42,881 bases of DNA from positions 1-42,881 of the forward strand of contig JAGYMF010000003.1 in assembly GCA_018400695.1 (NCBI GenBank), given 5' to 3'. Shown here piece after piece: positions 7,597 through 12,501 of the stretch (position 1 is the stretch's first letter; the number at the start of each line of letters is the position of its first letter). The position numbers were made by a program, and so were the translations under genes. The DNA is from Bacteroidales bacterium (GTDB lineage: Bacteria > Bacteroidota > Bacteroidia > Bacteroidales > GCA-2748055). The notes beneath the pieces were generated by a model. That model saw only the letters and a list, made by a program, of their open reading frames with translations. It was not told the origin of the DNA and searched no databases.

Positions 7597-8979
7597 ATGA
7601 TGAAGGTTTTTTTGAAGGTGGTTGTTTTGATGATGTCGCTGCAGCTGAATGCTCAGATACTGCAGATGGAGGTGCTGATCCAGGGGCTGCCTGACAAAAT
7701 GGTGTTCCTGTCGCATTATGAAAACGGTGGCTACCACCTTATTGACAGCACGATGGCGGTTAACGGCTCCTTCTATTTTGTGAAGGACCCGGTGATGCCC
7801 GACGGGATGTACAGACTGGATTTTCAGCGTCCCGATCCTGCAAAAAAGGAGGCCGGCGCACCCTATATTGAATGTATCTGGTCGGATGAATCGTTTACCG
7901 TGTATGCCGATTACAGGGACATCGCCGGCACAGTAAGTTTCGACGGGTCTGAAGAGAACAGGGTGCTGGGACGTTTTCGTGAGTATGAGAACCTCTATGA
8001 GCGCAAGATGAACGTCCTCTATCCGCTGATCGACCGCTATCCGGAAAAAGACACCTTCTATGCAGGTGCATCTGACCATTTCATGTCCCTGCAGGCTGAA
8101 AGGGATTCGTTGATCCTCGGGCTGTCGGCCGACCATCCCGGCCTCTTTGCCACCAGGCTTATCCGCGCGTACCGTTCCCCGTTGATCCCGGCTGACATGC
8201 AGGAGAGCGACCGGGTTACATTCATGAAGGAGCATTATTTTGAAAAAGCGCTGCTGGATGATCCTGCATTGTTGTACGCGCCTGTCTATAACCGCCGCAT
8301 CATCGATTACCTGATGCTCTACCGGGGCAGGGATTACTCCTTCACTGAACAGGAGGAGACGTTTACAGAAGCAGTGGACATCATCATGGCCAATGTGTCT
8401 GGCGATCCGGATCTGCGTTCCTTCGTGGTGGAATACCTGCTGGATGGGTTCCGGTCGTTCGGTATGGAGAAGATTCAGACGTATATCGTGGACACCTATG
8501 CCGACGAAACCTGTACCACCGATGCAGTAGCGCTGGCTGAGCAGCGTGTTGAAGGGTACCGCAAGATGGCGGAGGGTCAGGTGGCGGAAGACATCATGGT
8601 ACGCGATGCCGACCGGCAGCTGCAGCGGTTATCGGAAGTGGATGCGGACTACACCCTGGTGCTTTTCTGGGCCACCTATTGTGAGCACTGCATGGAGATG
8701 ATGCCCGAACTGCAAGCCTGGTACAGGGAAGAGCGTCCGGGGAATCTGGAGGTTTTTACCGTATCGATCGATACGGTGGTAGCTGACTGGCAGCGTTTCA
8801 GCGAAGTTTTTGATCCGTCCTGGATCAATACCCATGAACCGATGGGGTGGGAGGGAAAGAGTGCGGAAGATTACAACATCTATGCCACCCCAACCATGTT
8901 CCTTCTCGACCGCGAGCGACGCATCATTGCCCGCCCTTTTACCCTTCGGGAGCTGCGCCGGGAGATCCGAAGACTTTGA
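7597..8979 (+). CDS. TlpA-like thiol:disulfide oxidoreductase (thioredoxin-like, DUF4369/DUF5106-type architecture)
   Basis: ORF 7531..8979. The likely start is ATG 7597 (MMKVFLKVVVLMMSLQLNAQ). Redox motif 'LFWATYCEHCMEMMPELQAWYREE'; 'YNIYATPTMFLLDRERRIIARP'. Confidence 0.85.
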   Translation: MMKVFLKVVVLMMSLQLNAQILQMEVLIQGLPDKMVFLSHYENGGYHLIDSTMAVNGSFYFVKDPVMPDGMYRLDFQRPDPAKKEAGAPYIECIWSDESFTVYADYRDIAGTVSFDGSEENRVLGRFREYENLYERKMNVLYPLIDRYPEKDTFYAGASDHFMSLQAERDSLILGLSADHPGLFATRLIRAYRSPLIPADMQESDRVTFMKEHYFEKALLDDPALLYAPVYNRRIIDYLMLYRGRDYSFTEQEETFTEAVDIIMANVSGDPDLRSFVVEYLLDGFRSFGMEKIQTYIVDTYADETCTTDAVALAEQRVEGYRKMAEGQVAEDIMVRDADRQLQRLSEVDADYTLVLFWATYCEHCMEMMPELQAWYREERPGNLEVFTVSIDTVVADWQRFSEVFDPSWINTHEPMGWEGKSAEDYNIYATPTMFLLDRERRIIARPFTLRELRREIRRL

Positions 8980-8987
8980 GCGGGCAA
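8960..8987. repeat. 28-bp direct repeat, copy A (3' end of TlpA-like CDS plus 8 bp)
   Basis: gggagatccgaagactttgagcgggcaa, identical to 12474-12501. Confidence 0.95.
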
Positions 8988-9009
8988 CCAGTTAACTTAA
9001 GCCAGGTAT

Positions 9010-9043
9010 GAGAGGGAGCTAAGGTCAGTGATAGCTCCCTCTC
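9010..9043. terminator. Hairpin in convergent intergenic region (GAGAGGGAGCT / AGCTCCCTCTC, 11-bp stem)
   Basis: gagagggagct aaggtcagtgat agctccctctc. Confidence 0.5.
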
Positions 9044-9089
9044 TGCCAGCTTTAAACAATCAGGTAAATGACCCCCCAGGGTATTTCTT

Positions 9090-12000: not shown

Positions 12001-12092
12001 TTTTCTGTCATCCAGGTCTGAGCCCCTATTTTTACAGTTGAATAGACATTTCCATCTATGTCTGTTACTTGTTCAGTTTGTGCAAACAACAT
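9090..12092 (-). CDS. Large T9SS surface protein: FISUMP domain, carbohydrate-binding-module-like domain, cadherin-like segments, BNR/Ycf48-like propeller, T9SS tail. The 5' end appears frame-disrupted.
   Basis: '[32 protein letters not shown]' (FISUMP). Repeated '[14 protein letters not shown]', '[14 protein letters not shown]', '[14 protein letters not shown]', '[13 protein letters not shown]', '[14 protein letters not shown]' (BNR/Ycf48). '[32 protein letters not shown]' (cadherin-like/CADG). '[38 protein letters not shown]' (T9SS). Confidence 0.85.
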   Translation of the reverse strand: [1000 protein letters not shown]

Positions 12093-12170
12093 GCTTCCGA
12101 ACGTGAATAGGAAAATACAGCTGATAAGCGAGTTTTTTTCATTGTTTAAGTGTTTTGATTTGGATCCTGT

Positions 12171-12422
12171 TTATGATGAATTGGTAAATTTCTTATAATA
12201 GGATTTGAGATGAATTATTGACTGAATACAAGGTAATGTTTCAGTGAAAGTTGTGCAACTGTTTTTTTGTAAAATTATCTGGCTACGGTTAATTTTTTCT
12301 TTTTCAATTGAATTTTCTTCAACAGCAGGAGCACGCTCCTGCTGTTGAGTGCACTTCTCGGTCACAAACTCTTTCAGCAAATCCATTTTTAAAATAGATT
12401 TTTCCTTACGCCCAGTTCTCAT
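12171..12422 (-). CDS. Small ORF of uncertain coding status (83 aa), possible remnant
   Basis: ORF-track entry only, with no recognised motif. It contains a perfect 14-bp inverted repeat, which argues against coding. Confidence 0.15.
   Translation of the reverse strand: MRTGRKEKSILKMDLLKEFVTEKCTQQQERAPAVEENSIEKEKINRSQIILQKNSCTTFTETLPCIQSIIHLKSYYKKFTNSS
12319..12348. repeat. Perfect 14-bp inverted repeat with 2-nt loop
   Basis: tcaacagcaggagc-ac-gctcctgctgttga. Confidence 0.85.
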
Positions 12423-12473
12423 GCCATTCTTTTAGTAATGCCGTGAATACCCTGCGGAAGCAGACAGGATTTG

Positions 12474-12501
12474 GGGAGATCCGAAGACTTTGAGCGGGCA
12501 A
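12474..12501. repeat. 28-bp direct repeat, copy B (3 bp before the AGCS stop codon)
   Basis: gggagatccgaagactttgagcgggcaa, identical to 8960-8987. Confidence 0.95.

Follow-up and report, generated by a model that had tools for sequence, protein, structure and literature searches.

Tyrosine-recombinase genomic islands occupy the 3′ ends of genes, where a direct repeat of the gene's 3′ end flanks the island and the gene is restored on one side. Insertion sequences of the IS1202 group generate flanking duplications of 16-28 bp and carry terminal inverted repeats of ~24-26 bp (PMC10132070). In the IS256 family, the ends bear a subterminal TGTAAA motif, and the duplications made by one characterised member are 8 bp long (PMC7780238). 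Illegitimate and homology-facilitated illegitimate recombination in bacteria incorporate donor DNA with arbitrary edges through junctions that commonly show 3-10 bp of microhomology; such events usually delete recipient DNA and have long homology at one end (PMC3240628).

A 3.49-kb segment bounded by 28-bp direct repeats, found in an uncultured Bacteroidales-like lineage within a stretch of 42,881 nucleotides (hereafter the window), shares features with each of these systems. Like the islands, it is flanked by a directly repeated gene 3′ end and has the gene restored on one side; unlike them, it contains no integrase, and its far edge interrupts a decayed transposase gene. Its 28-bp repeat lies within the duplication range of the IS1202 group, but it has neither a transposase nor the terminal inverted repeats of that group. 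A remnant at its right edge (12249-12473) resembles the IS256 family in its transposase C-terminal end and subterminal TGTAAA, and differs from family members in being dead, truncated and located within the segment instead of forming its boundary. With illegitimate recombination the segment has in common arbitrary edges and possibly short junction microhomology, whereas 28 bp were duplicated rather than deleted and no long homology is seen.

The 28-bp repeat and the empty junction

The left flank of the segment is an intact TlpA-like gene of the thioredoxin fold (7531-8979, plus strand; Pfam Thioredoxin_8/AhpC-TSA), with orthologues in relatives, and the right flank an intact gene of the AGCS (sodium:alanine symporter) family (12504-13874, minus strand; Pfam Na_Ala_symp). 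The preliminary description had reported perfect 28-bp repeats between these genes. Exact matching over the whole window indeed recovers GGGAGATCCGAAGACTTTGAGCGGGCAA twice, as copy A at 8960-8987 and copy B at 12474-12501 (both plus strand; 28/28 positions identical), and a search allowing up to three mismatches yields no third copy in the window, as it yields none (0) in shuffled sequence. The placement of the repeats relative to the genes was also described correctly. Copy A consists of the final TlpA codons, the stop codon (8977-8979) and 8 bp beyond; copy B lies between an insertion sequence (IS) fragment and the AGCS flank and ends 2 bp short of the AGCS stop codon (12504-12506).

The same description would have been refuted had the 28-mer been a common dispersed repeat. 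This is ruled out because the genome holds two copies only: no other was found in the 1.96 Mb searched, a metagenome-type draft of 208 contigs that is 69% complete. In a repeat scan of 215 kb of this genome, comprising the window and 18 stretches carrying T9SS-tail genes, the 28-mer was the sole exact direct repeat of at least 18 bp with a spacing above ~130 bp; the one exception, 19 bp long and of low complexity, is a piece of a CT-rich microsatellite. The codons of the repeat, ELRREIRRL, match the C-termini of orthologues (e.g., ELRRSMRKLTR), and the 28-mer is therefore native TlpA sequence.

Joining the window flanks without the segment leaves 10 bp between the TlpA and AGCS stops, in keeping with the roughly 10 bp anticipated for a convergent ancestral arrangement. 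Six relatives of the same family have the TlpA-like and AGCS genes in this convergent order with the junction unoccupied, their stops being −4 to +72 bp apart; in one of the six, G016, the AGCS gene was matched in part only. A MutS-like gene follows AGCS in the relatives' longer stretches, as it does in the window. Because six relatives have an empty convergent junction, this state is likely ancestral and the segment would be an insertion accompanied by a 28-bp duplication, as had been proposed. Another genus of the family (L157, L158, L159, L160, L164) carries a different gene of ~510 aa at the TlpA/AGCS junction, encoding a membrane protein that appears glycosyltransferase-like by eye (L160 has part only); no repeats longer than 8 bp flank it. 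The junction is therefore variable within the family.

The inserted segment and the remnant at its right edge

The inserted segment (8988-12473; 3,486 bp) is missing from the junction in the six relatives. The preliminary description had judged it AT-richer than both flanks and proposed that its GC content and codon usage be computed; GC content is 41.2% vs 52.0% in the remaining window, and its one long open reading frame (ORF), encoding a surface protein, has a GC3 of 0.37, the second lowest among 111 ORFs sampled in the genome (mean 0.554, SD 0.083). The sampled genome averages 47% GC and the flanks of the segment are themselves GC-richer than average, so that the contrast in composition is real, not extreme. 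The inner ends of the segment share no terminal inverted repeat: of the 26 outer positions 8 agree, and shuffled sequences give local matches as good as the best one here. A perfect 12-bp hairpin, possibly a terminator, lies at 9010-9043 between the left edge and the stop codon of the surface-protein gene.

The right edge is taken up by the decayed 3′ end of an IS of the IS256/Mutator family (12249-12473, minus strand). Positions 12247-12453 match genomes of the bacterial family where an IS256/Mutator-family transposase ends, and at six loci the homology stops at one common outer base, AGTTGCACAACT, with TGTAAA inside it; the corresponding outer end in the window is 12249. This end faces the surface-protein gene, and the transposase fragment, which carries a stop and a frameshift, runs toward copy B, where it is truncated at 12473/12474. 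A protein search gave a match at 12385-12513 to a homologue in L134 (E 3.4e-11), in a frame that enters the outer part of copy B. The L134 homologue matches PF00872 at 2e-24, a profile that alone fails to detect the remnant in the window. Judged by this homology, 12249-12473 represents the C-terminal end of a Mutator-type transposase, and the IS is dead. A 14-bp palindrome at 12319-12348 had been considered as an operator or attC-like hairpin and was discarded, as it sits within the transposase fragment.

The preliminary description had recognised neither an integrase nor a transposase inside the segment. As regards the integrase this stands, ORFs and Pfam revealing none and the surface-protein gene being the sole long ORF; as regards the transposase it needs amending, in that the segment contains the dead IS256-family fragment but no working enzyme. 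Outside the bacterial family, no related IS256 copies were detected at E 1e-25 among 395 genomes of the class, in a search where no positive control rang. The IS256-family end also occurs at or near contig ends in L136, L137, L138 and contig C116 of G003, as expected because multi-copy insertion sequences break assemblies.

Since the right edge of the segment lies inside a transposase gene, it does not mark the terminus of a mobile unit. Two alignment registers are available at this junction. Without a gap, copy B agrees with both IS homologues at 7 of its 9 outermost base pairs (0.002 for a random position of the genome) and at only 2-3 of the inner 16 bp. In an alternative gapped register (PKSCL codons), the IS homology ends exactly at the edge, with a 2/3 match and less microhomology. 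The extent of microhomology thus depends on the register chosen; in both, the edge falls in the middle of the dead transposase gene. On the simplest reading of the alignments, copy B derives from TlpA, and a short, imperfect homology is where it was joined to the IS fragment.

Origin of the insertion

The insertion was probably produced by illegitimate recombination that captured a 3.49-kb donor fragment at the TlpA/AGCS junction. Recombination-mediated insertion had been the last option listed in the preliminary description; it is now favoured because the right edge is arbitrary, in mid-transposase, and because the segment has no inverted repeats or other element ends, no enzyme and no second example among 24 T9SS-tail loci. 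The compared sequences themselves show the duplication, the relatives' empty site, an IS truncated where the segment ends on the right, and the lack of element ends. How capture took place, from which donor and in which direction copying ran are inferred as follows. The captured fragment would have been an AT-rich surface-protein gene adjoining a decayed IS256-family copy. Repair or replication would have copied the chromosome up to 8987, proceeded on donor DNA and then switched back to the chromosome 28 bp behind the point of departure, where the transposase sequence and the TlpA 3′ end share a short, imperfect homology. This return would duplicate 28 bp of TlpA and leave both neighbouring genes intact. 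An equivalent route may start from a break with a 28-nt stagger that is filled in and joined to the donor fragment. Whether the event was a template switch or the fill-in of a staggered break, a 28-bp duplication is expected. A single crossover with a circle at the short homology is ruled out, as it would fail to duplicate the 15-19 bp on the inner side of the repeat.

The empty convergent junction of six relatives and the atypical composition of the segment also count for this explanation. Among the genomes searched, this IS turned up only in the same family, which makes a donor from that bacterial family plausible. No donor locus for the segment was found in 60 relatives or in the 395 class genomes, nor a donor for the left inner edge, which counts against capture and leaves the left junction uninformative. 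Capture is further weakened by the dependence of the microhomology on the register, and by the usual outcome of the illegitimate insertions described, which is a deletion and not a short duplication (PMC3240628). The meeting of an insertion edge with a gene end needs no explanation under capture, yet it resembles integrase targeting.

The preliminary description had likened the structure to the footprint of such targeting, site-specific integration into gene 3′ ends. In this reading, an integrase supplied in trans would have placed a non-autonomous cassette at the TlpA 3′ end, with the 28-mer as attachment core. The exact repeat, the restoration of the gene 3′ end by one copy, the AT-rich cargo and the unoccupied site of relatives all agree with it, but the edge truncates a dead transposase gene, so that an attachment site would have to lie there by chance. 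Moreover, the segment offers neither an integrase nor inverted repeats, and the 28-mer occurs nowhere else in the draft genome or in IMG/VR viral contigs. The search for other 3′-end-displaced cassettes carrying T9SS genes, likewise suggested earlier, found none among the 24 T9SS-tail loci sampled, and no spaced repeats flank the other T9SS-tail genes in 18 stretches, many of them bounded by a contig end. We consider site-specific integration unlikely. It is also unlikely that a piece of foreign contig was joined at TlpA/AGCS through a shared 28-mer during assembly or binning. The genome is a metagenome-type draft in 208 contigs, both joins have a short repeat, and IS ends often break assemblies; on the other hand, such an error would take two false joins and a 28-mer naturally present beside an IS fragment, and both flanking genes are exact in the joined structure.

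The remaining readings fare worse. An IS1202-like process, with an unusually long target duplication and a transposase supplied in trans, would account for the 28 bp, which falls at the upper limit of the range of that group (PMC10132070), but the segment ends show no terminal inverted repeats and no such transposase lies within; it is quite improbable. Similarly improbable is a non-autonomous family element that moves single surface-protein genes by means of an unknown recombinase duplicating ~28 bp of gene 3′ ends, the IS remnant being a coincidental passenger trimmed exactly at the edge. Movement of the surface-protein gene by IS256-mediated composite or one-ended transposition is suggested by the IS256-family end within the segment, but that end is 225 bp inside, faces inward and stands at neither edge, no second IS copy is present, and the 8-bp duplications of the characterised member (PMC7780238) do not match the repeat; this reading is very improbable indeed.

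Under illegitimate capture, the insertion is one event, an acquisition of an ordinary kind that has left an unusually clean scar. The scar shows how a genome may gain a single large gene for a secreted protein that brings along no mobile element. It also advises caution, in that the 3′ end of a gene repeated in direct orientation is alone no proof of an integrase.

The surface-protein gene

The AT-rich gene carried by the segment (9090-12092, minus strand) encodes a FISUMP domain, YCF48/BNR-like repeats, an Ig domain and a T9SS sorting tail (Pfam). Its relatives are domain-level only: no close orthologue or donor was found in the 60 near genomes or, at E 1e-30, in the 395 class genomes, which are an even sampling of the class and not exhaustive. 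A viral or plasmid origin was rejected, as the 28-mer has no match in IMG/VR viral contigs and the surface protein matches plasmid and phage records at domain level only. The preliminary description had overlooked a frame break near the start of the gene: an A7 tract (12133-12139, minus strand) separates the likely start codon from a signal-peptide-like stretch, the two lying in different frames across it (12090-12145, minus strand). The gene as assembled may thus be broken, phase-variable, or mis-assembled or affected by a sequence error.

Elsewhere in the window, CT-rich intergenic tandem arrays with units like CAACTCTCAACTCTCTAAACTCT occur at 15786-15970 and 30034-30220 in opposite orientations, and also near position 4964 of L208, another contig of the genome.
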